Source: Jiella endophytica (GTDB lineage: Bacteria; Pseudomonadota; Alphaproteobacteria; Rhizobiales; Rhizobiaceae). Taken from it: DNA of 45,929 nt. This document shows, one piece after another, positions 7,452 to 24,001 of this stretch. Below the pieces are notes generated by a model. It was not told the origin of the DNA, searched no databases, and worked only from the letters and a program-made list of their open reading frames with translations. The translations under genes were made by a program, and so were the position numbers. Location: the NCBI RefSeq assembly GCF_004519335.1, contig NZ_SOZD01000015.1, positions 1 to 45,929 of the forward strand. The letters are read 5' to 3'. How positions within the stretch are numbered: position 1 is the first letter of the stretch; each line of letters begins with the position of its first letter.

Positions 7452-7473
7452 GATATAAAGATATGTTTATGTC
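7452..7473. promoter_or_regulatory. Operator-like palindrome upstream of the ArsR-methyltransferase/metF operon
   Basis: A 22-bp imperfect palindrome with half sites GATATAAA and TTTATGTC around GATATG; 18 of 22 positions are symmetric. It is A/T-rich against a G/C-rich background and touches the GTG start of the regulator gene. Position and symmetry fit a self-repressing ArsR dimer site. No binding data are implied. Confidence 0.6.
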
Positions 7474-7563
7474 AGGTCGCCAGATTTTGCAAGGCAAATT
7501 CGCCGTCCCCGTCACTCAATTCGTCGGCTGGCGTTTCAGCACCGTCGGCATGGGCGACGCGGC

Positions 7564-8112: not shown

Positions 8113-8121
8113 GCGGCAGGG

Positions 8122-8508
8122 ATGGCGACGGAACGGCAGAGACGCATCGCCCGGGCGGTGACGGCGGCGATCCCGCGGGCCCCTTTTCTCGACGCCGAGG
8201 CGATCCGGGAGGCGGCGCGCTCGCGGCACATGCGCAGCCTGGCGCCGGAAGCCGCCGTCTGGCTCGCCGCCATCGCCCGCATCCGCCACGAATACACCGA
8301 CTACGACGTGCTGATGGACGACGGCTACGACCGCGACGCCGCCCGCTTCTTCGTCATCGACGAGATCAACGCCGTGCTCGATCGCTGGGGCGCCCGCCGC
8401 CGGCTCGATCCCGACGTACCGGAGGCCGAGCTTGCGCATGGACCGGTGTCCGGCACCGATGACGAGGATGACGGGGACATCGAAGGGAGTGCCGGTTTCG
8501 GCGAATGA
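8122..8508 (+). CDS. DUF2293 domain protein
   Basis: A 128-residue protein with the DUF2293 core RHEYTDYDVLMDDGYDRD and AARFFVIDEINAVLDRWG, preceded by a basic helical head. Function is unknown. The acidic C-terminus (TDDEDDGDIE) looks disordered. It starts nine bases after trmO with CAGGG upstream, so the two are probably cotranscribed. That pairing suggests, but does not show, a link to RNA metabolism. Confidence 0.88.
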   Translation: MATERQRRIARAVTAAIPRAPFLDAEAIREAARSRHMRSLAPEAAVWLAAIARIRHEYTDYDVLMDDGYDRDAARFFVIDEINAVLDRWGARRRLDPDVPEAELAHGPVSGTDDEDDGDIEGSAGFGE

Positions 8509-8562
8509 ACTCGGTCGCGGCCGGTTCGCCTCCCGGTAAGAGAACAAGGGCCGACGGCGCTG

Positions 8563-10236
8563 TCAGGCGACGTTGGCCGCCATCGCCTGAACCATCTGGC
8601 GCGCCGGTTCGTGGCGCAGCGACACATGCCCGTGGAAACGGGCAAGATTGCCGCGGGATTTTTCGAGAAATGCGACGAAAGCCGAGATCTCCAGCGGGCG
8701 CGAGATGAAGAAGCCCTGGACATATTCGATGGCCGGCGACTTCTGCCGAAGCTGCTCGAGCCGTTCTTCGGTTTCGATCCCTTCGACGACGATGGCGCGG
8801 CCGGCTGCCTGGACCATCTCGATGGCGAGATCGAGCATCCGCGCCGCCACCGTCCCGTCGGGTGCCATGGCAAAGGCGCGATCGAGCTTGACGCCGTCGA
8901 CAGAGAGATCGACGAGGTTCTTGATGTTGGAATAGCCGGTGCCGAAGTCGTCGATCAGCACGCGGATACCTGCCGCGCGGAGATGGTCGACCCGAGCCTG
9001 CATGCATCTGACGTCGATCTCCTCGCTCTCGACCAGTTCGGCCACGAGGATGAAGCGGTCCTCGCTTCCGTCGAAGACGCGGAACACCGTCGGCAGCCGC
9101 GGATCGTTGAGGTCGCTGGGAAAGATGTTGAAGGTCACGACCAGCGGAACGCCCTTCGGCACCGCTTCGGAGAGTTCGCGATAGGCGCGCTCGACCACCA
9201 TGCGGGTGAATTCGAGCGTCATGGCGTTTTTCTCGACGATCGGAATGAAGGCATCGGGAAAGACGGTGCTTCCGTCGACGTCGCGCCACCTGGCGAGCAC
9301 TTCGCAGGCGCCGATCTGGCCGGTCTTGAGGTCCATGATGGGCTGGTAGACGCAGCGCACGGTATCGGGACCGAGCGTGCGCAGGAAGCGCGCCTCGAAC
9401 GACCAGCGGCGGGCGAGGCTCGACCGGGTCTGCGCCGATGCACCGATCGCCGCCAGCAAGGCGACGAACAGGATGCCCGGCACATAGTACCAATTGTCCG
9501 TGAAAAGCACCGTCAGCGAGGCGGTGCTGGCGACACAGACGACGCCGCCTTCGTAGCAGTCGATGGTCCTCAGCACGGGCGCCGTCGACCATAAGTCCAC
9601 GTTCGGGGAAACGAGGTTCTCGCGATAGATGCCCTCGACCCCCTTGCGGTGCCAGTGACGACCCGCCCCGACCAGGACGAGCTCGCTTTCCAGCCAGTTG
9701 CGTTCGGTAAGGACGTCGTCCGACGGCGGCCAGAAGACCACGGCGAACTGGCCACGCCGGGCGATGGAGGCGGTGAAATCCCAAAAGCCGGCGATGTCGA
9801 GACTGCGATCGACCCAGACGTCGATCGGGGCCCCCTTCGGAGTAAAAGCCAGATCCGGTTTGCCGAGAGCGACGGGCCTGTCCAGCCGCCCACGGCTGAC
9901 CGAACAGATGATCTTGTTGTTGCCATCAATGGCCATGAATTCGTTGAGGCCGTCGGGCAGCAGCGCCACCCGCCGCATCTCCGCCTGGAACTGCGGGCCG
10001 CAGAACCGCCCCGATGCCGCAGCGTTGAGTTGGCCGAAGGCTTTGACGATGGCAGTTTCCAGGGAAACGAACGGAGCCGTGGCCTGCTGGCTCTCGTCCT
10101 TCATCCGCGACTCTACGATGTGAAGGACCGCAAAGGCTGCACCAGCGCAGACCAGCAGGAAAGCTGCCAATCCCGCCATATACGCCGCAAAGCGCTGGCG
10201 CTCCGACGAGACGAAATTGACGATCAGCTTGGCCAT
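8563..10236 (-). CDS. Membrane-bound c-di-GMP phosphodiesterase with periplasmic CSS motif and EAL domain
   Basis: A 557-residue protein: transmembrane helix ~17-41, periplasmic domain ~42-250, second helix ~251-270, then a cytoplasmic EAL domain ~290-540. The periplasmic part has C79 and C111 (ICSVS), matching the CSS-motif redox sensor of PdeB/PdeC-type enzymes. In the EAL domain the signature reads EVL (E313) in place of EAL; the other metal and catalytic positions are present: N371, E401/E404, D430-D431 in DDFGTGYS, K451, E486 and Q508. Activity (c-di-GMP to pGpG) is therefore expected. There is no GGDEF domain. The ATG at 10236 has GAGGA upstream and is preferred to the frame opening at 10272. 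Confidence 0.92.
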   Translation of the reverse strand: MAKLIVNFVSSERQRFAAYMAGLAAFLLVCAGAAFAVLHIVESRMKDESQQATAPFVSLETAIVKAFGQLNAAASGRFCGPQFQAEMRRVALLPDGLNEFMAIDGNNKIICSVSRGRLDRPVALGKPDLAFTPKGAPIDVWVDRSLDIAGFWDFTASIARRGQFAVVFWPPSDDVLTERNWLESELVLVGAGRHWHRKGVEGIYRENLVSPNVDLWSTAPVLRTIDCYEGGVVCVASTASLTVLFTDNWYYVPGILFVALLAAIGASAQTRSSLARRWSFEARFLRTLGPDTVRCVYQPIMDLKTGQIGACEVLARWRDVDGSTVFPDAFIPIVEKNAMTLEFTRMVVERAYRELSEAVPKGVPLVVTFNIFPSDLNDPRLPTVFRVFDGSEDRFILVAELVESEEIDVRCMQARVDHLRAAGIRVLIDDFGTGYSNIKNLVDLSVDGVKLDRAFAMAPDGTVAARMLDLAIEMVQAAGRAIVVEGIETEERLEQLRQKSPAIEYVQGFFISRPLEISAFVAFLEKSRGNLARFHGHVSLRHEPARQMVQAMAANVA

Positions 10237-10471
10237 GGCGGTGTCCTCATCAACGCTAAGGAGAACATGCAACCGTCAACGATCGATTAAAACAATCAAA
10301 CGATCAAAGAACTAAGGCCCTCAAAGCAAAGCTATTTCCCGGCCCCGGAAGTCATTCGCTTTTTAGCGATCCGCTGTCAGATGGATTTGACAAGCACGCA
10401 GCCGATATTCGTAAGCTTTACTTGGCATCTCTAACGCGTCACCGGCGCATCGGGGCGAGCCATGCCGGACC

Positions 10472-10580
10472 AAACGAGAAAAGGCCCGCCCGGGGGAGGA
10501 CCGGGCGAGCCTTTTAAAATCAGCAAACGTTTGGGAGGAGGTGTTTGCCTGAGGGGTGTGTCTCACAAACTGAGACCTGC
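10472..10580 (-). ncRNA. Small RNA with anti-Shine-Dalgarno loops (suhB/MmgR- or alpha-r14-like)
   Basis: On the minus strand three stem-loops follow each other: GTCTCA/TGAGAC (10560-10576); GCAAAC/GTTTGC (10523-10548) with a loop holding ACCTCCTCCC; and a 15-bp terminator stem (10479-10515) with loop TCCTCCC and a T-rich tail. The one non-Watson-Crick position in the terminator (10486/10508) is G-U on the minus strand but C-A on the plus strand, which fixes the sense. A G-U also closes the middle stem only on this strand. Loops exposing CCUCCUCCC are the mark of the suhB/MmgR and alpha-r14 trans-acting sRNAs of rhizobia, which target ribosome binding sites. The 5' end is estimated. Confidence 0.72.
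10479..10515 (-). terminator. Rho-independent terminator of the small RNA
   Basis: A 15-bp stem with a seven-base loop (TCCTCCC on the minus strand) ending in TTTT. The single wobble pair exists only in the minus-strand transcript. It would also stop plus-strand transcription less well. Confidence 0.8.
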
Positions 10581-10716: not shown

Positions 10717-12336
10717 TCAAGGCGTCCCTGGCGCGCCCTGTCCGACGCGCGGTGCACCGACGTCCTCCTCCGCGACGGCGTCGCCCCAGGGTGACAGGAT
10801 CTCCGTCGCGCCGGAATTGAGCCCGCCCATCGCCATGACACCCGCCGGACAGGCGAAGGCATAGGGGAAGACCGTTCGCGGCGCGCGGGCGACCCGGAAG
10901 CGCTCGTTCAGCTGCGAGAGCTCCTCCTCCGCGAAAGCCGCATCGGCGATCACCGTGTCGCCGCCGGACACGTCGATCCGCGGCGCGTGGAAGGCCGTGT
11001 CGAGATCGTCGCCCTCGGCCATCATCCGGTGGGCGAGCTGCGCCACGGCGGGCAGGATCTTGCGGCCGCCCGACGCACCGATGGCGAAGCGGGCTTGCGC
11101 CGCCGTTCCGACCGCCGCCTCGCCGATCACCGGGCAGACGTTCATCAGGCAACGCTTGCCGGCGGCGAGCGAATTGGGCTTTCCGGCTTCGGGATCGAAC
11201 CACATGATGCCGTTGTTGAGGAGAAGGCCGGTGGAGGGCGAGACCACCCGCGAGCCGAACACCGACAGCAGCGTCTGGGTCATCGCCACCATGTTGCCAT
11301 GGCGGTCGACGACCGAAAAATGCGTCGTCGAACCCGGCGCGAGCGGGCTCTCGTGGTCTCCCATGGTGGCGAGGCGATCGGCATAGGCGCCGGACAACGC
11401 CTCGGCCATGGCGGCAAGCCTTCCGGCGCGATCGGCCGGCTGGCTGCTTCTCGCCAGACGGGCGAACACGTCGACGATGGTCGGCCCGGCGGTCAGCCGG
11501 GGCGTCGCGTGAAGGCGCCCGCCAAAGGCGTCGATGGAGAGCGGCTCGCCAATCTCCGCCCGGTAGCTCGCGAGATCCTCATAGGCGAGCGATCCGCCCT
11601 TTTCGGCAACGTCCTGCGCCAGCGCCCGGGCAACGTCACCCTCGTGGAACTCGCGCGGCCCGTTGCGGGCGATCTGTTCCAGCGTGTCGGCCAATCGCGG
11701 CATCTTCAGGCGGATGTCGGTGAGCGCCGTCCAGCCGCCGATCGGCGCGAACACGCCGTCCTCGAGGAACAGCGCCGCGGCATCGGCGTCCTTTGCCAGC
11801 GATCGTGCAGCCGAGGCGATGTTGAGGGCCGCGTACCAGTCGACCTTCAGCCCCTCGCTGGCAAGGCCGGCCGCCGGCGCGACGAGATCGCGCCAGGCCA
11901 TCCGGCCCCAGCGCTCGTGGGCGACGCCGATGCCATCGACGACGCCCGGCACTGCGACCGCCGTCGCACCCTCGATGTTGCGATCGTCCACCACCCGCCG
12001 CCAGGGGAAGAGATCGTCGGCGACGCCCTCGCCCGAAAGCGGGAAATCGCGCGGGTCGAGCCCGGCAGGGGCGCGCATGCCGTAGGTCACGGCATAGGGC
12101 CGGGCCTCGTCTGCCCGCCAGACCATCATCGCCCCGCCACCGGCCGGCCCGCTCATCCAGGGCTCGACCACGCCGATGGCGAAGGAGACGGCTGTCGCGG
12201 CGTCGATCGCATCGCCGCCGGCGGCAAGCACCTCGGCGCCGATTTCCGCGGCCCGGCGGTGCTGCGCCGCGACGATGCCGCCTCTGGAGACGCGCGCGGG
12301 CTTGGTGACGACGATGGAGCGGGAGAAGTTGTTCAC
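10717..12336 (-). CDS. Gamma-glutamyltransferase-family Ntn hydrolase, no signal peptide
   Basis: A 539-residue proenzyme of the gamma-glutamyltranspeptidase family. Such proteins self-cleave before a threonine that becomes the nucleophile; here T337 opens TTHFSVVDRHGNMVAMTQTL. Also visible are the N-terminal HRRAAEIGAEVLAAGGDAIDA, PWMSGPAGGGAMMV and the later LLLNNGIMWFDP and SGGRKILPAV segments. Known GGTs cleave gamma-glutamyl amides. The N-terminus (MNNFSRSIVVTKPA) has no export signal although GGTs are usually periplasmic, so this one probably acts in the cytoplasm on imported material. It lies 57 bases downstream of the IclR gene on the same strand and probably shares its transcript. 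Confidence 0.9.
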   Translation of the reverse strand: MNNFSRSIVVTKPARVSRGGIVAAQHRRAAEIGAEVLAAGGDAIDAATAVSFAIGVVEPWMSGPAGGGAMMVWRADEARPYAVTYGMRAPAGLDPRDFPLSGEGVADDLFPWRRVVDDRNIEGATAVAVPGVVDGIGVAHERWGRMAWRDLVAPAAGLASEGLKVDWYAALNIASAARSLAKDADAAALFLEDGVFAPIGGWTALTDIRLKMPRLADTLEQIARNGPREFHEGDVARALAQDVAEKGGSLAYEDLASYRAEIGEPLSIDAFGGRLHATPRLTAGPTIVDVFARLARSSQPADRAGRLAAMAEALSGAYADRLATMGDHESPLAPGSTTHFSVVDRHGNMVAMTQTLLSVFGSRVVSPSTGLLLNNGIMWFDPEAGKPNSLAAGKRCLMNVCPVIGEAAVGTAAQARFAIGASGGRKILPAVAQLAHRMMAEGDDLDTAFHAPRIDVSGGDTVIADAAFAEEELSQLNERFRVARAPRTVFPYAFACPAGVMAMGGLNSGATEILSPWGDAVAEEDVGAPRVGQGAPGTP

Positions 12337-12393
12337 GGGAAAGCTCTCCTTGAGGCGAGAGACGGGGTCAGGTTGCCCGACGCGGCGGCCGGG

Positions 12394-13170
12394 TCAGCCG
12401 ATCGCATTGGCGACGTCGAGCAGCGAGGGGACGACCTCGCTCCGCAGGCGTTCGCGGGTCCAGAGCGTGCCGCTCACCGAGCAGTGGATCGCGGCGTTGA
12501 CGCCGCCACCGCGGCCGACGGCGACGGCCACGGCGAGCTCGTTCATCTGCAGCTCGTCCTCGGCGATCGAGAAGCCGGTTTCGGCGGCGGACTCGACCAG
12601 CTCGGCGATCTTTCCGCGGTCCATCATCGTCGCCGGGGTGAAGCGGCGCAGCGGCCATTCCTCGACGCCGGTCGATCGCTCTGCAGGGCTGCGCCGGGCG
12701 AGCATCACCCGGCCGCTCGAGGTGTTGAGCGCCGGCACGCGCCGGCCGATGATCATCGCGGCATAGCTGGTGCGGGCGCTCGGCAGCCGTGCCGTATAGA
12801 CGATGTCGGTACCATCGAGCCGGGCGAAGTTGATGGTCTCGCCGAGATGCTGGCGAAGATCAATCAGCCGCGGCATCGCCGTCTGCACCAGCTCGTCGGA
12901 CCAGAGATAGGCGTTGGCGAGTTCGCTCATCCGGATCGACGGGCTGTAGCGGCGGGTCACCGGATCCTTGTCGAGATAGCCGAGCTCGTGGAACGTCGTC
13001 GTCAGCCGCTGCACCGTCGAGCGGTCGAAGCCGGTCTTTCGGGCAAGTTCCGTCAGCCCCATGCGTGGATGGTCCGGGTCGAAGGATTCCAGGAGCTTCA
13101 TCGCCTTTTCCAGTGACCCGAGGAAGTGGCCGTTCCTGCGTCTCTGTCCGTCACCCATCATGCACTGCAC
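12394..13170 (-). CDS. IclR-family transcriptional regulator
   Basis: 258 residues: an N-terminal winged helix (about 18-80; SLEKAMKLLESF, then LTELARKTGFDRSTVQRLTT as the recognition region) and an IclR ligand-binding domain (about 90-250, with ETINFARLDGTDIVY and SSGRVMLAR). It is divergent from the ABC importer genes and upstream of the GGT gene, so it most likely controls both sides in response to the imported compound or a product. Three ATG codons at 13170, 13161 and 13158 compete as start. An inverted repeat in the intergenic region is a candidate operator. Confidence 0.93.
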   Translation of the reverse strand: MQCMMGDGQRRRNGHFLGSLEKAMKLLESFDPDHPRMGLTELARKTGFDRSTVQRLTTTFHELGYLDKDPVTRRYSPSIRMSELANAYLWSDELVQTAMPRLIDLRQHLGETINFARLDGTDIVYTARLPSARTSYAAMIIGRRVPALNTSSGRVMLARRSPAERSTGVEEWPLRRFTPATMMDRGKIAELVESAAETGFSIAEDELQMNELAVAVAVGRGGGVNAAIHCSVSGTLWTRERLRSEVVPSLLDVANAIG

Positions 13171-13236
13171 ACTCTTTGCCCGATAATGCCTGTTGACTAA
13201 TTCGTAGTCGCGTTCTTACCATACCTCAATCCGCAT

Positions 13237-13258
13237 TTTAGTAGCGCAGTGCGCTAAA
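13237..13258. promoter_or_regulatory. Candidate IclR operator in the divergent promoter region
   Basis: An inverted repeat with core arms AGCGC and GCGCT separated by AGT, flanked by TTTAG on the left and AAA on the right. It sits between the IclR start and the binding protein start (13309), where a regulator of both directions would act. It is inferred from symmetry and location only. Confidence 0.55.
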
Positions 13259-13308
13259 GAGTGCGGATGTCCCCTGCGGCCCCGCCGCGCCTTACCGGAG
13301 ACGCCTGC

Positions 13309-14922
13309 ATGTCGATCTTTTCCCCTGCTTCCGCCTTCCGGCCCTCGCGGCTCGTCCGCTCGGCCCTCCTCGCTTCGGCGCTCGCCCTCGGCGCTCTCGC
13401 TGCCGGCCCGGCCGCAGCCCAGGAAATCCGGGCGGTGATGCATTCAGGCATCCGCGTGCTCGATCCGGTCATCACCACGGCGCACATCACCCGCAACCAC
13501 GGCTACATGATCTACGACACCCTGCTCGGGATGGACGAGAACCTGAAGCCGCAACCGCAAATGGCAAGCTGGACGGTCTCCGACGACAAGCTGACCTACA
13601 CCTTCACTTTGCGCGACGGGCTGAAATGGACCGACGGCAAGCCCGTCACCTCGGCCGACTGTGTCGCCTCGCTGAAGCGGTGGGGCGAGCGGGACGGCGG
13701 CGCGCAGCTGTTGTTCAAATATGTGAAGGGCCTCGAACCGAAGGACGACAAGACCTTCGTCATGACGCTGTCGCAGCCCTTCTCCTACGCCATCGAGCTG
13801 ATGGCCAAGCCCTCCGGCCTGCCGACCTTCATCATGCCGGAGCGGGTCGCCAAGACGCCGTCGAGCGAATCCATCACCGACTACACCGGCTCCGGCCCCT
13901 TCAAGTTCGTCGAGAGCGAGTTCGAGCCTGGCGTCAGGGCCGTCTACGAGAAGAACGAGGACTACGTTCCCCGCAAGGAGCCGGCGAGCTGGACGGCCGG
14001 CGGCAAGGTGGTGAAGGTCGACAAGGTCACCTGGGTGGTGATGCCCGACGCCCAGACCGCGGTGAACGCCATCAATTCCGGCGAGATCGACTATCTCGAG
14101 CAGACGCCGACCGACCTTCTGCCGCTGCTCGAGGCCAATCCCGAGCTGACGGTGATGACGCTGACCGATCTCGGCTACCAGACGATGGGCCGGCTGAACT
14201 GGCTCTACCCGCCCTTCGACAAGGTCGAGATCCGTCGCGCCGCGATGGCCGCACTCGGCCAGGAGCCGATCCTCGCGGCCCTTGTCGGCAATCCCGACTA
14301 CCAGTCGAAATGCGGCTCGATGTACGGCTGCAACACGCCCTACGCCACCGAGGCCGGCGACGAGTTGATCATGAAGGGCCCGCAGCCGGAAGTCGCCAAG
14401 AAGATGCTCGACGAGGCCGGTTACGACGGCACGCCGGTGGTCCTGATGCAGCCGACCGACGTCGGCTCGGTCGCGCCGCAGCCCGTCGTGGCCGCCCAGC
14501 TCCTGCGCCAGGCCGGCTTCACCGTCGACCTGCAACCGATGGACTGGCAGACCCTCGTCACCCGCCGGGCCAGCCAGTCCCCCGTCGCCCAGGGCGGTTG
14601 GAACATGTTCTTCACCAACTGGATCATTCCCGAGGTGTGGAGCCCGATCAACAATCCGATGCTCAACGGCGGCGGCAAGGAAGCGGCCTGGTTCGGCTGG
14701 CCGGACGATCCCGAACTCGACGAGATGCGGGTGAAATTCGCTGCCGCCGAGACGGAGGAAGAGCGCAAGACGATCGCTGCCGACATTCAGAAGCACGCCT
14801 ACGATGTCGTGAACTACATCCCCGTCGGCGAGTACAAGATCCCGACGACGGTCTCCAAGAAACTGAGCGGCATCGTCAAGATGCCGGTGCCGGTGTTCTG
14901 GAACGTCGAAAAGTCCGAATAG
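13309..14922 (+). CDS. ABC importer substrate-binding protein, family 5 (peptide/nickel/opine type)
   Basis: A 537-residue exported protein. A signal peptide of about 37 residues ends at GPAAAQE. The mature part is SBP_bac_5-like: MIYDTLLGMDENLKPQPQMA, DKLTYTFTLRDGLKWTDGKPV, TGSGPFKF and the C-terminal NYIPVGEY region. Such proteins deliver di- or oligopeptides, opines or related compounds to DppBCDF-type transporters. The ligand cannot be read from the sequence; the hydrolase genes downstream argue for a peptide-like amide. The frame opens at 13261, but the ATG at 13309 starts the signal peptide and follows CCGGAG. It is the first gene of a same-strand run that reaches 24001. Confidence 0.93.
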   Translation: MSIFSPASAFRPSRLVRSALLASALALGALAAGPAAAQEIRAVMHSGIRVLDPVITTAHITRNHGYMIYDTLLGMDENLKPQPQMASWTVSDDKLTYTFTLRDGLKWTDGKPVTSADCVASLKRWGERDGGAQLLFKYVKGLEPKDDKTFVMTLSQPFSYAIELMAKPSGLPTFIMPERVAKTPSSESITDYTGSGPFKFVESEFEPGVRAVYEKNEDYVPRKEPASWTAGGKVVKVDKVTWVVMPDAQTAVNAINSGEIDYLEQTPTDLLPLLEANPELTVMTLTDLGYQTMGRLNWLYPPFDKVEIRRAAMAALGQEPILAALVGNPDYQSKCGSMYGCNTPYATEAGDELIMKGPQPEVAKKMLDEAGYDGTPVVLMQPTDVGSVAPQPVVAAQLLRQAGFTVDLQPMDWQTLVTRRASQSPVAQGGWNMFFTNWIIPEVWSPINNPMLNGGGKEAAWFGWPDDPELDEMRVKFAAAETEEERKTIAADIQKHAYDVVNYIPVGEYKIPTTVSKKLSGIVKMPVPVFWNVEKSE

Positions 14923-15023
14923 GCAGGGCTTGATTCCTCCGGCGCTGCCGCCTTCCCGCGGCGGCGGCGGGCAGAATGCTCGGCGCCGCGCCAACCGACT
15001 TCATCGCCGCGAGGCAATTCTTC

Positions 15024-15965
15024 ATGCTGGCCTATATCGCCCGCCGCATCCTGGCTTCGGTCCCCGTGCTCGTCGTCGTGGCGCTGTTCGTGTTCCTGCT
15101 CCTGCGCCTGACGCCGGGCGATCCGGCCGCCATCCTCGCCGGGGATATGGCGACGCCCGAGCAGCTCGAGCGCATCCGCGAGAGCCTCGGCCTGAACGAG
15201 CCCCTCGCCAGCCAGTTCCTCACCTGGATCGGCCAGCTTCTTTCCGGCGACTTCGGCCGCTCGCTGATCTCGCACACGCCGGTGCTGACGCTGATCGGCC
15301 AGCGGCTCGAACCGACGCTGAGCCTTGCCATCGTAACGATGCTGATCACCCTTCTCCTGTCGATCCCGATGGGTGTCGTCGCGGCCTGGCGCCATGGCAG
15401 CCTGACCGATAATGCGGTGATGGCGATGTCGGTCCTCGGCTTCTCGATCCCGGTCTTCGTGACCGGCTACATCCTCATCCAGATCTTCGCGATCGATCTG
15501 CGGCTATTTCCCGTCCAGGGCTTCAAGAGTATCGGCAGCGGCGTCGGGCCGTTCCTGTCGCGCATCGTGCTGCCCGCCTTCACCCTGGCGACGATCTACA
15601 TCGCGCTGATCGCCCGGATGACCCGGGCGGCGATGCTGGAGGTTCTCGACGAAGACTATGTCCGCACCGCCCGGGCGAAAGGTCTCTCTGAGCGGGTCGT
15701 CCTGTTCCGCCACGCTTTGCGCAATGCCGCCGTGCCGATCCTCACCGTCGTCGGGACGGGGTTTGCCCTGATGATCTCCGGCGTCGTTGTCACCGAAAGC
15801 GTCTTCAACATTCCCGGCCTCGGCCGGCTCACCGTCGATGCGATCCTCGCGCGGGACTATCCGGTGATCCAGGCGCTGATCCTCCTCACCAGCGGCATCT
15901 ACGTCGTCATCAACCTCCTCATCGACATCTCCTATGCCTTCATGGATCCGAGGATCCGCTACTGA
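15024..15965 (+). CDS. ABC importer permease, DppB-like
   Basis: A 313-residue inner-membrane permease with six predicted helices. The N-terminal MLAYIARRILASVPVLVVV and the segment DYVRTARAKGLSERVVLFRH (the EAA loop contacting the ATPase) are typical of DppB/OppB. It pairs with the next gene to form the channel. The frame is open from 14976; the ATG at 15024 matches the usual family start and has GAGG 13 bases upstream. Its TGA overlaps the ATG of the next permease by one base. Confidence 0.94.
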   Translation: MLAYIARRILASVPVLVVVALFVFLLLRLTPGDPAAILAGDMATPEQLERIRESLGLNEPLASQFLTWIGQLLSGDFGRSLISHTPVLTLIGQRLEPTLSLAIVTMLITLLLSIPMGVVAAWRHGSLTDNAVMAMSVLGFSIPVFVTGYILIQIFAIDLRLFPVQGFKSIGSGVGPFLSRIVLPAFTLATIYIALIARMTRAAMLEVLDEDYVRTARAKGLSERVVLFRHALRNAAVPILTVVGTGFALMISGVVVTESVFNIPGLGRLTVDAILARDYPVIQALILLTSGIYVVINLLIDISYAFMDPRIRY

Positions 15966-16858
15966 TGGAGAGGAGAGACGCCACCGCCGATGCGGCCGAG
16001 CCGGTGATCCGCCGCCAGTTCCTGCCGAAAGTCGCCCTGTCGGACCTGCGGCTCGCCCCGACGATCGCCGCCGTCTGTCTGGCCGTCATCGTCATCGCCG
16101 CGCTGCTCGCGCCGCTGATCGCGCCCTATGACCCGATCGCGATGAACCCGATGGAGCGCCTCGCCTCGGCCTCCCTCACCCACCCCTTCGGCACCGACGC
16201 CTACGGCCGCGATGTCTTCTCGCGCACCCTCTACGGCGCCCGCATGTCGCTGATCATCGGCGTCGGCGCCGCCCTCGTGGCGGTTCTCGTCGGCCTGCCG
16301 CTCGGGCTTCTCGCCGGTTTCTTCCGGCTGCTCGACGCGGTGCTGATGCGGGTCATGGACGGGCTGATGGCGATTCCGTCGATCCTGCTCGCCATCGCCG
16401 TCGTCTCGCTCGCCGGATCGAGCCTGTGGACCGTGCTCGTCGCGATCACCATCCCGGAGATCCCGCGGGTGGTGCGGCTGGTGCGCTCGGTGGTGCTGTC
16501 GGCCCGCGAGGAGCCCTATGTCGAGGCGGCGATCGCCGTCGGTTCGAGCCTGCCGAAGATCATGTGGCGGCACCTGATGCCCAACACCCTGGCCCCCCTC
16601 ATCGTCCAGGCGACCTATGTCTGCGCCTCGGCGATCCTGACCGAGGCGATCCTCTCCTTCCTCGGCGCCGGCATCGGCACAGAGACCCCGTCCTGGGGCA
16701 ACATCATGTCCGAGGGCCGGCTGTACTTCCAGCTGAAGCCGGGGCTGATCTTCTGGCCGGGCCTGTTCCTGTCCCTGTCGATCCTGGCGATCAACATCCT
16801 TGGCGATACGGCCCGCGACGTCCTCGATCCGCGGCTCGGCAAGAAGAGGGACGGCTGA
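15965..16858 (+). CDS. ABC importer permease, DppC-like
   Basis: A 297-residue permease with an N-terminal cytoplasmic tail, then six helices. Family marks are HPFGTDAYGRDVFSRTLYGAR, the EAA loop EEPYVEAAIAVGSSLPKIMWRH and the C-terminal GDTARDVLDPRL. It partners with the DppB-like protein. TGATG overlaps on both sides (with the preceding permease and the following ATPase) show translational coupling. Confidence 0.95.
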   Translation: MERRDATADAAEPVIRRQFLPKVALSDLRLAPTIAAVCLAVIVIAALLAPLIAPYDPIAMNPMERLASASLTHPFGTDAYGRDVFSRTLYGARMSLIIGVGAALVAVLVGLPLGLLAGFFRLLDAVLMRVMDGLMAIPSILLAIAVVSLAGSSLWTVLVAITIPEIPRVVRLVRSVVLSAREEPYVEAAIAVGSSLPKIMWRHLMPNTLAPLIVQATYVCASAILTEAILSFLGAGIGTETPSWGNIMSEGRLYFQLKPGLIFWPGLFLSLSILAINILGDTARDVLDPRLGKKRDG

Positions 16859-18555
16859 TGGGCGCGGCGCGGAACACCGACGCGGCCGCCGCGGCGGAAG
16901 GCGACGTCCTCGTCGTCGAGAACCTCGTCGTCGAGACCACCGGGCGAAACCCGGTGAGGATCATCGACGACGTCTCGCTCACCGTCGCGCCGGGCGAGAC
17001 GGTGTGCCTCGTCGGCGAGAGCGGCTCCGGCAAGTCGGTGACCTCGCTCGCCACCATGGGCCTTTTGCCGAAGGGGGCGCTCGCCGCCCGCTCCGGGCGG
17101 ATCCTCGTCGAGGGCGAGGACGTGCTTTCGGCGAGGCCGTCGCGGCTTCGCCAGATGCGCGCGACGCGCATGTCGATGATCTTCCAGGAGCCGATGACGG
17201 CGCTGAACCCGGTGCTCAGCGTCGAGGCGCAGCTCGACGAGGTGCTGTCCGCCCATGGCTCAATGAACGCCGCCGACCGCCGCAGCAGGATCCGCGAGAT
17301 CCTCTCCCTCGTCCATCTGCCGGATGTCGAGCGGATGTGCGGCTCCTTCCCGCACCAGCTTTCCGGCGGCCAGCGCCAGCGGGTGATGATCGCCATGGCG
17401 CTGGTGCTGGAACCCAAGCTGCTGATCGCCGACGAACCGACCACCGCCCTCGACGTCACCACCCAGAAGCAGATCCTCAAGCTGATCGCCGAGATCCAAG
17501 AGCGGCTCGGCACCTCGGTGCTGTTCATCACCCACGACATGGGCGTCGTCGCCGACATCGCCGACCGGGTCTATGTCATGCGCCACGGCAAGCTGGTCGA
17601 ATCCGGCCGCATCGACACCATCCTGACGAAGCCGGAGCGCGACTATACCCGCGACCTCCTCACCGCCGTCCCGGCGCTCAGCCCGCGCGCGGCGCGGCGG
17701 GCGACGTCGAAGGAGACCGTTCTCGAAACCTCCGAGCTCGGCATGGTCTACGGCCGCGCATCGCTGTTTCGAAAGCGCGAGGGCACGGTGGCCGCCGAGA
17801 AGGTCGATCTCCGGCTAACCCGCGGCCGCACGCTCGGCATCGTCGGCGAGAGCGGCTCCGGCAAGTCGACCGTGGCGCGCTGCGTCATGCGGCTGATCGA
17901 CCCGACCTCGGGCAGCATCCGGCTGCGCGGCCAGGAGATCGCCGGGCTTTCGCGCAGCGCGCTGAGACCCTGGCGCAAGCGGATCCAGATGATCTTCCAG
18001 GATCCGAACCGCTCGCTCAATCCGCGGCTCACCGTCGGCGACAGCATCACCGAGGGGCCGATCAACTACGGGACCCCGAAGTCCGAGGCCCGCGAGCGTG
18101 CCCGCCAGCTCCTGCAGCTCGTCGGTCTGCCGGCCGACGCCATCGACCGGCATCCGCACCAGTTTTCCGGCGGCCAGCGCCAGCGGATCGCGATCGCCCG
18201 CGCTCTCGCCATGGAGCCGGACGTCCTCGTCGCCGACGAGGCGGTCTCCGCCCTCGACGTTTCGGTGCAGGCTCAGGTGCTCGATCTCCTCGACGACATC
18301 CAGAAGCGGCTCGGCGTGGCGCTGCTCTTCATTACCCACGATCTGAGGGTCGCGGCGCAGATCTGCGACGATGTCGCGGTGATGCAGCGCGGCAAGGTGG
18401 TCGAATACGGCCCGACCGCCGAAGTCCTCGGCAATCCGCAACAGGCCTATACCCGCGAGCTGATCGAAGCGGCCCCCGGGCGACACTGGGACTTTCCGAA
18501 CTTTCGCCCGATGCCGGGCGCGGAAGCCCCGCTTCAGAACAGCCCCGGAGGTTGA
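16858..18555 (+). CDS. ABC importer ATPase, fused DppD-DppF double domain
   Basis: A 565-residue protein with two complete nucleotide-binding domains. Domain 1 has Walker A GESGSGKS at 53-60, signature LSGGQRQR near 168-175 and Walker B LLIADEP. Domain 2 has Walker A at 330-337, signature SGGQRQRIA and DVLVADEAVSALD. Each is followed by the oligopeptide/dipeptide-type C-terminal extension (LTKPERDYTRDLLTAVP; NPQQAYTRELIEAAP). In most such importers these are two genes; the fusion resembles GsiA/YejF. The second Walker B ends DEAVSALD rather than DEPTSALD, a frequent variant. The start ATG overlaps the preceding stop. Confidence 0.95.
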   Translation: MGAARNTDAAAAAEGDVLVVENLVVETTGRNPVRIIDDVSLTVAPGETVCLVGESGSGKSVTSLATMGLLPKGALAARSGRILVEGEDVLSARPSRLRQMRATRMSMIFQEPMTALNPVLSVEAQLDEVLSAHGSMNAADRRSRIREILSLVHLPDVERMCGSFPHQLSGGQRQRVMIAMALVLEPKLLIADEPTTALDVTTQKQILKLIAEIQERLGTSVLFITHDMGVVADIADRVYVMRHGKLVESGRIDTILTKPERDYTRDLLTAVPALSPRAARRATSKETVLETSELGMVYGRASLFRKREGTVAAEKVDLRLTRGRTLGIVGESGSGKSTVARCVMRLIDPTSGSIRLRGQEIAGLSRSALRPWRKRIQMIFQDPNRSLNPRLTVGDSITEGPINYGTPKSEARERARQLLQLVGLPADAIDRHPHQFSGGQRQRIAIARALAMEPDVLVADEAVSALDVSVQAQVLDLLDDIQKRLGVALLFITHDLRVAAQICDDVAVMQRGKVVEYGPTAEVLGNPQQAYTRELIEAAPGRHWDFPNFRPMPGAEAPLQNSPGG

Positions 18556-18563
18556 AAGAAACC

Positions 18564-20072
18564 ATGCAGCCCGCCTTTTCGCCGCGCATCGCCGTCGGCG
18601 GATTCATGCACGAGACCAACACATTCGCCCCGACGATGGCCGACCTGCCTGCCTTCGAGCATGGCGGCGGCTGGCCGGCCCTTTCCGAAGGCCCGGCGAT
18701 GCTGGAGGCGACGCGCGACGTCAACATGGGCATCTGCGGCTTCGTCGAGGCGGCGGAGCAGCGCGGCTGGCGGCTCGTCCCGACACTGTGGTGCGCGGCG
18801 GTGCCCTCGGCCCACGTCACCGAGGACGCCTATGAGACGATTGCCGGGCGCATCGTTTCGGCGATCGCCGCCGCGGGCCCCCTCGACGGCGTCTATCTCG
18901 ATCTCCACGGCGCCATGGTCGCCGAGCATCTGGAAGACGGCGAAGGCGAACTGCTCGTCCGGGTGAGGTCGCAGGTCGGGCCCGACGTGCCGATCGTCGC
19001 CAGCCTCGATCTCCATGGCAATGTGACGAGGATGATGGTCGAACAGGCCGACGCCCTCGTCGCCTATCGCACCTATCCGCATGTCGATATGGCCAAGACC
19101 GGCCGGCGCGCCGCGCAGCTGCTCGCTTGGCTGCTTGACGGCCGCCGCTATGCCAAGGCGTTCCGGCAGATCCCCTTCCTGATCCCGATCGCCTGGCAGT
19201 CGACCGACATGGAGCCGAACGCCTCGATCTACCAGGCGGTCGCGGAGCAGGAGGCCGGCCCCGTCGCATCGGTGTCGTTTCTCTGCGGCTTTCCGGCCGC
19301 CGACATCGCCGATTGCGGCCCCTCCGTCGTCGCCTATGCGGAAACCGAGGAGGCGGCGAAGGCGGCGGTCGATGCGATCGGCGAGAAGGTCTGTGCCGGG
19401 CGGCTCGCCTTTGCCGGCGCCACATACGATCCGCTCGACGCCGTCCGCGAGGCACAGCGCATGGCCGCGAAGGCTCGCAGACCGGTGGTCATCGCCGACA
19501 CCCAGGACAATCCCGGGGCGGGAGGCGATTCCAACACGATGGGGATGCTGAAGGCGCTGATCGAGGCAGACGCCAAAGGCGCGGCGATCGGCGCGATCTT
19601 CGATCCTGCGGTCGCGAGGACCGCCCATGAAGCCGGCGTCGGCGCGACGATCGCCTGCGCCCTCGGAGGCGCCAAGGGCATCGAGGGCGACAGTCCCTAT
19701 GCGGGCCTCTTCGAGGTCGTCGCCCTCTCCGACGGCGAGTTCGTCGCCCCGGGGCGGTTCTATGGCGGCGTCCGCATGCAGCTCGGCCCCTCGGCCTGTC
19801 TCAAGGTCGGCGGCATTTCCATCGTCGTCGTCAGCCGCAAGGCGCAGATGGCCGATCGCGAGATGTTCCGCTTTCTCGGCGTCGAGCCCGAGCGCCAGGC
19901 GATCCTGGTCGTCAAGAGTTCGGTGCATTTCAGGGCCGACTTCGCGCCGATCGCCGAGACCATCCTGGTCGCGACGGCGCCCGGCCCGATGCCGGTCTCG
20001 CCGGCTTCCCTACCCTTCACCCGGCTGCGGAGCGGCGTCGACCTGTCGCCGACAGGCCCCGCCTTCGTCTGA
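18564..20072 (+). CDS. M81-family metallopeptidase (MlrC / microcystinase C-like)
   Basis: A 502-residue protein with the MlrC fold. The N-terminus PRIAVGGFMHETNTFAP carries H16-E17, followed by the DGVYLDLHGAM and VASLDLHGNVT segments and YRTYPHVDMAKTG, then the second-domain DTQDNPGAGGDSNTMGML. MlrC is known from microcystin degradation, where it cleaves linearised peptide products, but most relatives sit in ABC-importer operons like this one and act on unknown peptides. GGAGG lies 14 bases before the ATG and the gene starts eight bases after the ATPase stop, so it belongs to the operon. Cytoplasmic. The natural substrate is unknown. Confidence 0.9.
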   Translation: MQPAFSPRIAVGGFMHETNTFAPTMADLPAFEHGGGWPALSEGPAMLEATRDVNMGICGFVEAAEQRGWRLVPTLWCAAVPSAHVTEDAYETIAGRIVSAIAAAGPLDGVYLDLHGAMVAEHLEDGEGELLVRVRSQVGPDVPIVASLDLHGNVTRMMVEQADALVAYRTYPHVDMAKTGRRAAQLLAWLLDGRRYAKAFRQIPFLIPIAWQSTDMEPNASIYQAVAEQEAGPVASVSFLCGFPAADIADCGPSVVAYAETEEAAKAAVDAIGEKVCAGRLAFAGATYDPLDAVREAQRMAAKARRPVVIADTQDNPGAGGDSNTMGMLKALIEADAKGAAIGAIFDPAVARTAHEAGVGATIACALGGAKGIEGDSPYAGLFEVVALSDGEFVAPGRFYGGVRMQLGPSACLKVGGISIVVVSRKAQMADREMFRFLGVEPERQAILVVKSSVHFRADFAPIAETILVATAPGPMPVSPASLPFTRLRSGVDLSPTGPAFV

Positions 20073-20134
20073 CCGACACGCCCGGCGATGCCTCACAAGG
20101 CGCGCCGGCATAACCGCCACCAACGAGGACTGCG

Positions 20135-21298
20135 ATGACCATCATTCCCGAAATCGCCAGCTTTTCGACCGACCTCACCGAAATCCGCCGCGATCTGCAC
20201 GCCCATCCCGAGATCGGCTTCGAGGAGAAGCGCACCTCCGCGATCGTCGCCGAAAAGCTGCGCGCCTATGGTCTCGACGAGGTGCATGAGGCGGTCGGCG
20301 TCACCGGCGTCGTCGGCATCCTGCGCGGCACCGGCGGCGAAGGACGGACGATCGGGCTTCGCGCCGACATGGACGCGCTGCCGATGGAAGAGCAAACCAA
20401 CCTGCCCTTCCGCTCGCAGAATCCCGGCGCCTTCCATGGCTGCGGCCATGACGGCCACACCACCATGCTGCTCGGCGCGGCCCGCTATCTCGCCGCCAAC
20501 CGGGATTTTGCCGGGACTGCGATGTTCGTCTTCCAGCCGGCCGAGGAAGGCCTCGGCGGCGCCAGGGCCATGCTCGCCGACAAGCTGTTCGAGCGGTTCC
20601 CCTGCGACGAGATCTATGGCCTCCACAACAGCCCGATGCTGAACCTCGGCGAGGTCGGCATCTTCCCGGGCAAGGCGATGGCCGGGGCGAGCTTCTTCGA
20701 CATCACCATCAAGGGCCGGGGCAGCCACGGCGCCCGGCCGCACGACTCCAGAGACCCGATCGTCATCGCGACGTCGCTGTCCCAGAGCCTGCAGTCGATC
20801 GTCAGCCGCAATGTCGATCCGATGCTGCCCGCGGTCCTTTCGATCACCAAGATCCACGCCGGCTCGGCCTATAACGTCGTTCCGGAAAGCGCCGAACTCG
20901 GCGGCACCGTCCGGTTCTTCGACGACGCGGTCGGCGAACTCGTCGCCCGCCGCATGCGCGAGATCTGCGCCGGCGCGGCGGCGATGTATCAGTGCGAGAT
21001 CGACGTCGACATCCGCCCCATCTTTTCGGTGCTGGAGAACCACCCGGCCGAGACCGAGGAGATGCGGCTTGCCGCCGTCGACATCGTCGGCGAGGCCGGC
21101 GTGCTCACGGAGCCGACGCCGATGATGGGCAGCGAGGATTTCGCCGACATGCTGCTCGCCGTCCCCGGCGCCTATGCCTGGGTCGGCCATGGCGGCACCA
21201 TGCCGCTGCACAATCCGGGATTCATCCTCGACGACGAGATCCTGCCGATCGGCGCCAGCCTGCTGGCCCGGGTGGTGGAGCGCCGGCTCTCCGCCTGA
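20135..21298 (+). CDS. M20D amidohydrolase (hippurate hydrolase / N-acyl-amino-acid deacylase-like)
   Basis: A 387-residue M20 family hydrolase of the HipO/aminoacylase branch. Visible are RRDLHAHPEIGFEE, GLRADMDALP, the metal site FHGCGHDGHT (C103, H105), the catalytic QPAEEG (E137-E138), the dimerisation domain with GSHGARPHDSRDP, and PMMGSEDF near the C-terminus. Relatives remove N-acyl groups from amino acids. No signal peptide. It lies 62 bases after the M81 gene and continues the operon. Confidence 0.92.
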   Translation: MTIIPEIASFSTDLTEIRRDLHAHPEIGFEEKRTSAIVAEKLRAYGLDEVHEAVGVTGVVGILRGTGGEGRTIGLRADMDALPMEEQTNLPFRSQNPGAFHGCGHDGHTTMLLGAARYLAANRDFAGTAMFVFQPAEEGLGGARAMLADKLFERFPCDEIYGLHNSPMLNLGEVGIFPGKAMAGASFFDITIKGRGSHGARPHDSRDPIVIATSLSQSLQSIVSRNVDPMLPAVLSITKIHAGSAYNVVPESAELGGTVRFFDDAVGELVARRMREICAGAAAMYQCEIDVDIRPIFSVLENHPAETEEMRLAAVDIVGEAGVLTEPTPMMGSEDFADMLLAVPGAYAWVGHGGTMPLHNPGFILDDEILPIGASLLARVVERRLSA

Positions 21299-21351
21299 GA
21301 CGGCCTGCCTTGCCTGCCAACCATCGCATGCATGAATGACGAGGAAGACTG

Positions 21352-22488
21352 ATGGACGTGACCAAGGTTCCGCTCGACGCGGAAGAGATGATCAAGGGGC
21401 TCAAGCGCTGGGTCGAATGCGAGAGCCCGACCTACGACAAGCCTTCCGTCGACAGGATGGCAGCGCTCGCCGCCGATGACATGAAGGCGCTCGGCTTTTC
21501 CGTCGAGATCATCCCCGGCCCGGACGGCCTCGGCGATTGCGTCCGGGCGACGTTCCCGCATCCCAGGCAGGGCGAGCCGGGCGTCCTGATCAGCGGCCAT
21601 ATCGACACGGTGCATCCGCTCGGAACGCTGGAGAAGCTGCCGTTCCGGCGCGACGGCGACCTCTGCTGGGGCCCCGGCATCTGCGACATGAAGGGCGGCA
21701 ACTACATCGCCATGAGCGCCGTCAAGGCGCTCGCCGAGATGGGCGTCGAGACGCCGCTGCCGGTGACGATCCTTCTGACCTCCGACGAGGAAATCGGCAC
21801 GCCGGGTTGCCGCGCGATGATCGAGGCGGAGGCGGCGAAGAACAAATACGTCCTCGTTCCCGAGCCTGCCTGGGCGCGCAACACGGTGGTCACCGGGCGC
21901 TACGCCATTGCCCGCTACCACCTCACCGCCCTCGGCCGGCCGAGCCATGCCGGCGCGGCGCTGAAGGCCGGCCAGTCGGCGGTGAAGATGATGGCGAGAA
22001 AGCTCATCGAGATCGAGGACATGACCGACGACGACTGCACCTTCTCGGTCTCGGTCATGCATGGCGGCCAGTGGGTGAACTGCGTGCCGACGATCGCCCG
22101 GGCCGAATGCCTGTCGATGGCCAAGCGCCAGGAAGACCTCGACCGCGGCACCGGGAAGATCCTCGCCTTCAACCGGCAGGAGGCCGACGGCACCGGCTTC
22201 GTCGTCGAAAAGAGCGTCGTGCGTCCGGTCTGGGAGGCCAGCGCAGGGACGATGGAGCTTTACGAGCGGGCAAGGCGGCTCGGCAACGAGCTCGGCTTCG
22301 ATCTCGCCCATGCCTCGGAGGGCGGCGGATCCGACGGCAACTTCACCGGCGCGATGGGGCTGCCGACGCTTGACGGCCTCGGTGTCGTCGGCCGCGACGT
22401 CCATACGCTGAACGAGCATATCGAGGTCTCGAGCCTCGCCTCGCGCGGCAAGCTGATTGCCGGGCTGCTCGCGGAACTCGGCGCGTGA
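21352..22488 (+). CDS. M20 metallopeptidase, glutamate carboxypeptidase (CPG2)-like
   Basis: A 378-residue M20 family protein of the carboxypeptidase G2 branch. Metal ligands and catalytic residues visible: H83 and D85 in GHIDTVHPLG, D112 in GICDMKGG, E146-E147 in TSDEEIG, an EP motif near 175, and the C-terminal SEGGGSDGNFTG. CPG2-type enzymes cut C-terminal glutamate from folates and peptides. Unlike secreted CPG2 it has no signal peptide, so it acts in the cytoplasm. It begins 53 bases after the M20D gene on the same strand. Confidence 0.92.
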   Translation: MDVTKVPLDAEEMIKGLKRWVECESPTYDKPSVDRMAALAADDMKALGFSVEIIPGPDGLGDCVRATFPHPRQGEPGVLISGHIDTVHPLGTLEKLPFRRDGDLCWGPGICDMKGGNYIAMSAVKALAEMGVETPLPVTILLTSDEEIGTPGCRAMIEAEAAKNKYVLVPEPAWARNTVVTGRYAIARYHLTALGRPSHAGAALKAGQSAVKMMARKLIEIEDMTDDDCTFSVSVMHGGQWVNCVPTIARAECLSMAKRQEDLDRGTGKILAFNRQEADGTGFVVEKSVVRPVWEASAGTMELYERARRLGNELGFDLAHASEGGGSDGNFTGAMGLPTLDGLGVVGRDVHTLNEHIEVSSLASRGKLIAGLLAELGA

Positions 22489-22519
22489 GCCGACCTGATC
22501 TCCTCGCCGGGGCGCGGCC

Positions 22520-24001
22520 GTGACGCTTTCGGGCGGCACGTCGGAGGAGAAAGCAGCGAAGGGCGGCACCGCGTCGCCCTTCGCTGCCAATGGTTCGCTG
22601 CGCGCTCCGGCCGGCGAGGTTTCCGGGATCTGCGCCCTGCCGGCGACCGCGCTCGCCGCCGCGATCGCCAGCCGCAGCCTCTCTTCGGTCGAGGTCGTCG
22701 CGGCCTTTCTTGACCGGATCGAAAGCGTCAATCCGGCGCACAATGCCATCGTCTCGCTGCGGCCGAGAGAGGAGATCCTCGCCGAGGCCGAGGCTGTCGA
22801 CCGGCGGATCGCTACAGGTGAGGCGCCGGGACCGCTCGCCGGCCTGCCCATCGCCATCAAGGACCTGTCGCCGACGAAGGGCCTTCGCACGACTTTCGGA
22901 TCGCCGATCCACCGGGACGACGTGCCCGATGCCGACGGGCTGGCGACGGCCCGTGTCAGGGCGGCCGGGGCGATCGTCATCGGCAAGACCAACACGCCGG
23001 AATTCGGCCTCGGCTCTCACACGTTTAACGAGGTGTTCGGGGCGACCGGCAACGCCTTCGATCCGGCAAGAAGCGCCGGCGGCTCGTCAGGCGGCGCGGC
23101 CGTGGCGGTCGCCACCCGCATGCTGCCCCTCGCCGACGGCTCGGACATGGGCGGCTCGCTGCGCAACCCCGCCGCCTTCAACAACGTCTACGGCCTTCGA
23201 CCGTCCTTCGGACGGGTGCCGAGCCTGCCGGCCGGCAATGTCTTCGAGGCTTCGCTCTCGACCGACGGGCCGATGGCGCGGACGATCGACGATCTGGCGC
23301 TGCTGCTCGCGGTCCAGTCCGGCGCCGATCCCCGTCAGCCGCTCTCCGCCGGTCTGCCAGACATCACCCGCGACAGGCTCCCGACCGACCGGCCCGTGAG
23401 GATCGGCTGGCTCGGCGACCTCGGCGGCCATCTCGCCACCGAAGCCGGTATCCTCGAGACCTGTTTGTCCGCCCTCAATACGCTTCCCGGCTGCGAGACC
23501 TCGCCAGCTAGCCTCGGCTTCGATCCCGAGCGTCTGTGGCAGAGCTTCGTCGTCCAGCGCCAGGCGGCGATTGCCGGCAAGCACGGGCCGCTCTTCGACG
23601 ATCCGGCGACCCGCGATCTCCTGAAACCGGAACTCCAGTGGGAGATCGAAAACGGCAAGGCACTCTCCGCCCTTGCCCTCCATGTCGCCGGCGAGACGCG
23701 GACGGCATGGCACCTCTGCCTGCTCGACCTCTTCGGAAAATTCGACTTCCTCGCGCTCCCCGCAGCGCAGGTCTGGCCGTTTCCGATCGAATGGCGGTGG
23801 CCCCAGACGATCGCCGGCCGCCCGATGGACAGCTATCATCGCTGGATGGAATGCGTCGCCCCCGGCACCTTGTCCGGCTGCCCGGTGCTGGCGCTGCCGG
23901 CCGGCTTTTGCGACGGCCTGTCGACTGGCGTCCAGCTGATCGCCCCGCTCGGCCGCGAGGCCGATCTCCTCGCCCTTGCCCGTCGCCGCGAGCCGACCTG
24001 A
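22520..24001 (+). CDS. Amidase (amidase signature family), last gene of the peptide/amide island
   Basis: A 493-residue amidase. The triad is K114 (AIKDLSPTKG), S189 (GGSSGG loop) and S213 (DMGGSLRNPA), with the normal 24-residue Ser-Ser spacing. The annotated start is GTG at 22520; the first ~35 residues look non-conserved, so a later start is possible. It follows the CPG2-like gene by 31 bases and is the last plus-strand gene of the run. It would hydrolyse an amide bond in the imported compound or a breakdown product. It is only distantly similar to the amidase at 3699. Confidence 0.9.
   Translation: MTLSGGTSEEKAAKGGTASPFAANGSLRAPAGEVSGICALPATALAAAIASRSLSSVEVVAAFLDRIESVNPAHNAIVSLRPREEILAEAEAVDRRIATGEAPGPLAGLPIAIKDLSPTKGLRTTFGSPIHRDDVPDADGLATARVRAAGAIVIGKTNTPEFGLGSHTFNEVFGATGNAFDPARSAGGSSGGAAVAVATRMLPLADGSDMGGSLRNPAAFNNVYGLRPSFGRVPSLPAGNVFEASLSTDGPMARTIDDLALLLAVQSGADPRQPLSAGLPDITRDRLPTDRPVRIGWLGDLGGHLATEAGILETCLSALNTLPGCETSPASLGFDPERLWQSFVVQRQAAIAGKHGPLFDDPATRDLLKPELQWEIENGKALSALALHVAGETRTAWHLCLLDLFGKFDFLALPAAQVWPFPIEWRWPQTIAGRPMDSYHRWMECVAPGTLSGCPVLALPAGFCDGLSTGVQLIAPLGREADLLALARRREPT

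Follow-up and report, generated by a model that had tools for sequence, protein, structure and literature searches.

The window analysed here is the entire 45,929-base contig NZ_SOZD01000015.1 (contig C6) of the Jiella endophytica draft genome (5.25 Mb, 28 contigs), and it contains a ten-gene cassette in which an IclR-family regulator, a family-5 ATP-binding cassette (ABC) importer and five hydrolases lie side by side. Judged from its sequence, the cassette is probably a substrate-inducible catabolic operon, in which a peptide-like compound would be imported and its amide bonds then hydrolyzed step by step in the cytoplasm. As such, it would be an uncharacterised cassette, plausibly catabolic, of a known general kind. 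Its core, consisting of the importer, an M81 metallohydrolase, an M20D deacylase and a carboxypeptidase G2 (CPG2)-like M20 hydrolase of family PRK07473, recurs across many genera. The cassette is thus widespread in bacteria and apparently undescribed: No published account of it was found in literature searches.

Genes in the window were assigned by matches to Pfam and NCBIfam profiles, and all ten members of the set named in the initial annotation are present with strong domain matches (Table 1). From the gene for the solute-binding protein (SBP) to that for the amidase, eight open reading frames form a plus-strand run with spacings of at most 62 nt, two adjacent pairs overlapping by a few bases; the run had been correctly described as tight, but as containing seven genes. 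By inspection, the likely start of the SBP is the ATG at 13309, which is preceded by CCGGAGA, rather than the GTG at 13261. Both M81 domains are present (PF07364, 345.1 bits; PF07171, 197.5 bits), and residues E20, H118, D152, H154 and H176 (numbered from base 18555), which we take to be metal ligands, are invariant in 19 sequences. The amidase has all three of the motifs IAIKD, GGSSGG and MGGSLR, whose roles are presumably catalytic. Export was judged from a hydropathy scan of the N-terminal 50 residues of seven proteins, together with inspection. Only the SBP has a signal-like N-terminus among the seven; none of the five hydrolases (GGT-like, for gamma-glutamyltransferase; M81; M20D; CPG2-like; amidase) begins with a signal-like stretch, as had been noted earlier, and a hydrophobic stretch at residues 35–49 of the amidase was judged to belong to the protein fold.

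If these genes serve one pathway, they should stay together in other genomes, and the initial annotation held that relatives carrying them scattered, with no conserved neighbourhood, would speak against such a pathway. All ten genes occur in identical order in Jiella pacifica (L081), J. avicenniae (L082) and Fulvimarina endophytica (L083), at 65–91% identity. To trace the cassette further, named genomes were scanned with the M81 alignment, which yielded at least 587 relatives, and the best 80 loci were kept on M81 similarity alone; the scan may omit records very near the window genome, and 18 of the 80 loci are shorter than 20 kb. The closest loci, among the matches listed, came from Jiella and Fulvimarina. 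The importer was present in 64 of these best 80, the M20D gene in 63, the CPG2-like gene in 61 and all three in 54, such that the core keeps a shared neighbourhood rather than being scattered. Because Bradyrhizobium supplies 30 of the 54 full-core loci, the fairer figure is that the full core is present in 15 of 31 genus-level labels (which include author-assigned labels for metagenome bins), Rhodobacterales and Salinicola among them. The core genes occur in at least five orders (SBP..M81-M20D-CPG2; M81-SBP..M20D-CPG2; CPG2-permeases-ATPase-M81-M20D, with the SBP reversed; M81-M20D-CPG2-SBP..; and SBP..-amidase-CPG2-M81-M20D), and their co-location is therefore not a single inherited arrangement.

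A protein search with M81 in 199 genomes of the same order, combined with a comparison of regions, likewise found the importer, M81, M20D and PRK07473 genes to be often clustered. The identity cut-offs applied to these genomes (M81, at least 56%; M20D, at least 60%; CPG2-like, at least 57%; GGT-like, at least 50%) were chosen after the lists had been viewed. Close M81 relatives occur in 15 of the 199 genomes, and all 15 also hold M20D and CPG2-like relatives at cut-off, the CPG2-like gene lying on a different contig from M81 in one of them (G167). M20D relatives occur in 22 genomes, seven of which are without a close M81, and CPG2-like relatives in 23, eight of which are without one. The strength of this co-occurrence by Fisher tests is overstated because the cut-offs are post hoc and the 15 genomes represent only six families. 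Elsewhere in the window genome, a second M20D gene (48%) adjoins an amidase gene (32%) at 8076–10446 of locus L070 (G000:C2).

On plasmids, M81 was matched in 494 records, 491 of them at less than 60% identity. Of 40 plasmid regions listed, 14 chosen by us were inspected: Eight carry importer, M81, M20D and CPG2-like genes; two carry importer and M81 without both M20 genes, one of these with GGT and amidases; one has a different importer (permease identity 37%); and three have no importer at the cut-offs, namely a Mesorhizobium region with D-serine ammonia-lyase and two from Caballeronia. In two further regions inspected for the CPG2-like gene, it lies outside the cassette.

The remaining genes are less constant. 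Of 119 loci considered (window excluded; some overlapping or closely related), 92 have both importer and M81. Within 3 kb of this core, the accessories, counted by label, were PRK07486-type amidase (8), PRK07042-type amidase (5), GGT-like protein (5), ArgE-type deacylase (4), penicillin acylase (3), AcdS (2) and DsdA (1). At the identity cut-offs, the best 80 M81 loci hold a GGT-like gene (at least 50%) in 5 cases, the amidase in 6 and the IclR gene in 3. The gene that directly follows the CPG2-like gene in Rhodobacterales may encode a penicillin acylase, a GGT-like protein (L148, L159) or an amidase (L145), and three genomes of family f28 have a GGT-like match that starts 15 bases past the end of the CPG2-like match. 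The GGT-like protein, the amidase and this IclR regulator are accessories and not part of the widespread core, a pattern that suggests a constant core with variable, niche-specific extras that would cleave amides.

Variation among accessory hydrolases might also be expected of a broad scavenging operon that takes up a mixture of N-acylated amino acids and small peptides, with each hydrolase acting on different molecules. Each of these hydrolase families is individually broad, and the ligands of family-5 SBPs with this fold range from peptides and opines to other small molecules. In NCBIfam, the SBP matches GsiB best (105.7 bits, far under the cut-off of 594), and the permeases score best against Opp/Gsi/Nik-type models. 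The SBP model groups with family-5 proteins that bind dipeptides, opines and other ligands, which does little to narrow the substrate. We nevertheless regard scavenging of this kind as rather unlikely: The cassette has a dedicated importer and a divergent regulator gene with a single exact palindrome in the genome, and the same hydrolase relatives are retained together with that importer.

Some related loci also carry a D-serine ammonia-lyase (DsdA), a D-amino-acid-oxidase-like enzyme or a 1-aminocyclopropane-1-carboxylate (ACC) deaminase, and the first and last of these hint at unusual amino acids, as would be the case if the substrate were a peptide containing D-amino acids. DsdA adjoins importer and M81 genes in Diaphorobacter and the M81 gene in Mesorhizobium 131-3-5 (by annotation and 40% identity), and in two genomes (G175 and G149) some 2 kb separate it from the GGT-like gene, in the former inside a run of importer, GGT-like, M20 and amidase genes. 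ACC deaminase adjoins the cassette in Nitratireductor OM-1 and Chelativorans, and a GGT-like and M20 pair in Sulfitobacter alexandrii; the DsdA proteins of Diaphorobacter and G175 and the Nitratireductor ACC deaminase all exceed their family cut-offs. Yet catabolism of such a peptide appears quite improbable. The window genome gave no DsdA or ACC deaminase family match at the limits used; by a reading of coordinates, no M81 or GGT-like place is closer than 25 kb to any of the 53 acdS places in the order; the dsdA link holds in just two of eight dsdA genomes, both of one genus; the 92 loci contain only the one DsdA and two AcdS labels; and the pattern was found after the fact.

The initial annotation had proposed a gamma-glutamyl bond in the substrate, and this part finds no support in the sequence. 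In E. coli GGT, glutamate is reported to be contacted by R114, N411, Q430, D433, S462 and S463, with G483/G484 at the carbonyl (PMC6769717). On alignment, the GGT-like protein retains the catalytic Thr and the oxyanion Gly-Gly, and would thereby qualify as an N-terminal nucleophile (Ntn) hydrolase of the PF01019 superfamily. The six contacts, however, are replaced by G86, L357, G376, W379, M398 and N399 (the S462 and S463 sites being taken from the alignment to B. licheniformis GGT, since that to E. coli is gapped there). Among the 38 rows of at least 42% identity that cover these sites, representing 26 distinct genes including that of the window, R114→G, N411→L, D433→W and S463→N are found without exception; the Q430 site has G in 36 and A in 2, and the S462 site M in 29 and C, T or G in 9. 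In relatives at 30–40% identity, the contact sites vary. The protein scores 247.6 bits against TIGR00066, below the cut-off of 357.85, whereas three other proteins of the genome (L260, L261 and L262) exceed it. Only L260, which has a signal-like N-terminus, possesses the canonical set of contacts (R, E, E, D, S, S). The GGT-like enzyme of the cassette has therefore apparently lost the contacts for a gamma-glutamyl group, and a gamma-glutamyl bond in the substrate is not supported.

A caution comes from L261 and L262, which pass the cut-off with most of the gamma-glutamyl contacts missing: The GGT family model alone does not establish activity, nor does sequence alone settle that of the GGT-like protein. 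These two proteins show that contacts have been lost in other branches as well, and some proteins labelled as GGTs may have other functions. The same GGT-like branch also lies beside family-5 importers outside the cassette, in the order IclR-importer-GGT-M20 in Sulfitobacter faviae and importer-GGT-M20, with IclR nearby, in Pseudochrobactrum; G173 and G175 have similar loci with GGT-like and importer genes, whose M20 is PRK07079. At 2203–10569 of locus L228, a GGT-like operon includes an M20 (PRK07079), TauE/SafE, DsdA, an amidase and an oxidase of the D-amino-acid oxidase family.

GGT-like genes occur in 19 of the 199 genomes of the order, including 12 of the 15 with a close M81, in which they lie at the cassette in four and elsewhere in eight. 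Salvage of glutathione or gamma-glutamyl peptides, in which a Gsi-like importer would supply a cytoplasmic GGT and carboxypeptidases, could draw on this co-occurrence, on the PF01019 membership and on the resemblance of the SBP to GsiB and of the permeases and ATPase to GsiC, GsiD and GsiA among others, but it is very improbable given the loss of six contacts, with four replacements fixed in relatives, the separate GGT with canonical contacts, the presence of a GGT-like gene in just 5 of the best 80 M81 loci, and the fact that glutathione use, to our knowledge, requires no amidase, M20D or M81.

What remains of the initial annotation is its central reading, import followed by cytoplasmic dismantling, which agrees with the importer, the unexported hydrolases, the local regulator and the conserved gene set once the gamma-glutamyl detail is removed. 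The opine, cyclic peptide and siderophore-like compound that it named as examples of the substrate are conjectural. In such a catabolic operon, the importer would take up a small compound with several amide bonds. Accessory hydrolases, including the amidase and the GGT-like enzyme, the latter presumably cutting an amide bond other than gamma-glutamyl, may strip outer acyl or amide groups, which would vary with the niche; inner peptide-like bonds would be cleaved by M81 and the CPG2-like enzyme; and M20D would free the last N-acyl group, leaving amino acids and acids to enter central metabolism. IclR would sit on TAGCGCA-N-TGCGCTA, downstream of the promoter, and keep the operon repressed until it binds substrate or product.

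The candidate elements for this regulation lie between the iclR and SBP genes, where TTGACT-18-TACCAT is followed by the palindrome TAGCGCAGTGCGCTA (13242–13256). The first hexamer is identical in both Jiella relatives and Fulvimarina; the second is identical only in J. avicenniae, differs by a single base in J. pacifica and is altered in Fulvimarina. The palindrome is the sole exact copy in the draft genome, and in Fulvimarina it is altered symmetrically in both arms (TATCGCATTGCGATA). We treat it as a putative IclR operator because of its position beside a divergent promoter, its perfect symmetry and its partial conservation; the counts of sites do not favour it. Within the window, there are two matches at three or fewer mismatches, an ordinary count.

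Several observations weigh against the reading as a substrate-inducible catabolic operon. Among the best 80 M81 loci, 17 are missing some but not all of the three partners (importer, M20D and CPG2-like genes), and nine have no core partner in the stretch available, one of which ends right after M81. In two Caballeronia loci (L246, L247), M81 (about 53–56% identity) adjoins a major facilitator superfamily transporter; in one of the two, an ABC importer that falls short of the cut-offs lies at a distance of about 3 kb. M20D-type genes are common, being present in 135 of the 199 genomes of the order at E ≤ 1e-60, and general use as aminoacylases is therefore possible. With respect to regulation, each of the two Jiella relatives has one outer position of the palindrome broken, the operator candidate rests on four sequences of one lineage, and the genome shows no excess of near-matches (five sites at two or fewer mismatches versus 18 for the reversed control).

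The cassette is a testable unit, with conserved enzymes and an importer in many genera, and the shared substrate is probably an overlooked nutrient. A further possibility, which we put forward tentatively and hold to be doubtful, is that soil, plant-associated and marine Proteobacteria use it to catabolise a class of peptide-like natural products, N-acylated or containing D-amino acids, that is common but has gone unrecognised, in which the core of importer, M81, M20D and PRK07473 is combined with exchangeable acylases for the caps and the GGT-like protein founds a non-gamma-glutamyl Ntn specificity. The cassette would give functions to M81 enzymes that take no part in microcystin degradation and to the PRK07473 family. 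It would do the same for a GGT-like branch annotated in databases as gamma-glutamyltransferase despite the missing residues.

Table 1. Features of the cassette and its regulatory region, in window coordinates.
Feature	Position	Strand	Basis or remark
GGT-like Ntn hydrolase (PF01019)	10717..12336	-	Pfam; no signal peptide seen; Thr337, Gly423/Gly424
IclR-family regulator, PcaR/PobR-like	12394..13170	-	178 bits, under PcaR/PobR family cut-off of 284.75
Sigma-70-like promoter, TTGACT-18-TACCAT	13193..13222	+	Sequence, relatives compared
Perfect 15-bp palindrome, TAGCGCA-G-TGCGCTA	13242..13256	.	Candidate IclR operator
Family-5 SBP (SBP_bac_5), export-signal-like start	13309..14922	+	Profile; start by inspection
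ABC permease, DppB/GsiC type	14976..15965	+	Pfam/NCBIfam
ABC permease, DppC/GsiD type	15965..16858	+	Pfam/NCBIfam
Fused double ABC ATPase (YejF/GsiA type)	16855..18555	+	Pfam/NCBIfam; start by inspecting translation
M81 (MlrC-like) metallohydrolase	18564..20072	+	Pfam; start by inspection
M20D aminoacylase-type deacylase (TIGR01891)	20135..21298	+	363.2 bits vs. cut-off 153.75
CPG2-like M20 hydrolase, NCBIfam PRK07473	21352..22488	+	625 bits vs. cut-off 386
Amidase-signature hydrolase, PRK07486 subfamily	22520..24001	+	640 bits vs. cut-off 465

The next gene after the cassette is mdoG, at 24266, with no evident connection to it. A second amidase-signature protein is encoded about 6 kb from the cassette (3546–4979, plus strand), and no link was seen. 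At 5505–7451, a methylenetetrahydrofolate reductase-type gene adjoins a fusion of an ArsR helix-turn-helix domain and a methyltransferase, possibly a methionine-cycle pair. The region 26222–31580 could be a locus for amine or polyamine uptake and oxidation: Its plus strand encodes a flavin amine oxidase, an SBP (families 8/6/1) and a permease with two domains, and its minus strand an ABC ATPase. Further along are a PutA-like protein with proline dehydrogenase, aldehyde dehydrogenase and PutA DNA-binding-type domains (33636–36998) and a saccharopine dehydrogenase family protein (38570–40222).

Each part of the cassette can be set beside a known system. For carboxypeptidase G2, we assume roles as metal ligands, catalytic Glu, carboxylate-binding R324 and side-chain contact K208. 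The window enzyme retains the metal site, the catalytic Glu and the R324 equivalent (H83, D112, E146, E147, E171, H351 and R291), and it also keeps the equivalents of H229 and N275; however, K208 aligns to a gap, R288 is replaced by M and T357 by E, and glutamate specificity, as far as the alignment can suggest it, is unproven. It further differs from carboxypeptidase G2 in having no signal-like start and in scoring above the threshold for PRK07473, a family that is uncharacterised.

Among solved structures, the M20D enzyme matches YxeP best (263.7 bits). The B. subtilis yxe operon reportedly resembles the cassette in combining an importer with subsequent deacylation by the M20D enzyme YxeP, and is said to differ in its importer class and in having no M81, CPG2-like, amidase or GGT-like genes. 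The operon is reported to serve the breakdown of S-(2-succino)cysteine (PMC9706529).

To the mlr system, the likeness is that of MlrC: The window protein belongs to the M81 family and has the aligned E/H/D/H/H residues, although its 185.1 bits against the MlrC model NF041767 do not reach the cut-off of 999. In the mlr route, an acyl-amino acid amide is cleaved in the cytoplasm after transport, and MlrD is hypothesised as the transporter (PMC12474180), whereas import in the window would rely on an ABC system. Among the 40 window translations scanned, no family resembling MlrA or MlrB turned up, a scan that included no dedicated search for them.

Other Rhizobiales family-5 peptide importers include YejBEF-YepA, of which YepA is, we assume, a family-5 SBP. 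The window resembles this system (PMC9790009) in combining a family-5 SBP with a YejF-like fused ATPase. The window permeases score highest against models of Opp/Gsi/Nik type, and its operon would appear to be catabolic and not devoted to wall recycling.

Finally, the GGT-like protein shares its superfamily, catalytic Thr and oxyanion Gly-Gly with GGTs, YwrD and class IV cephalosporin acylases, and it differs from GGTs in the replacement of all six gamma-glutamyl contacts and in falling under the TIGR00066 cut-off. YwrD, which is described as intracellular and without an assigned role (PMC8062742), offers a further likeness, in that the window protein, by inspection of its N-terminus, would also be intracellular.

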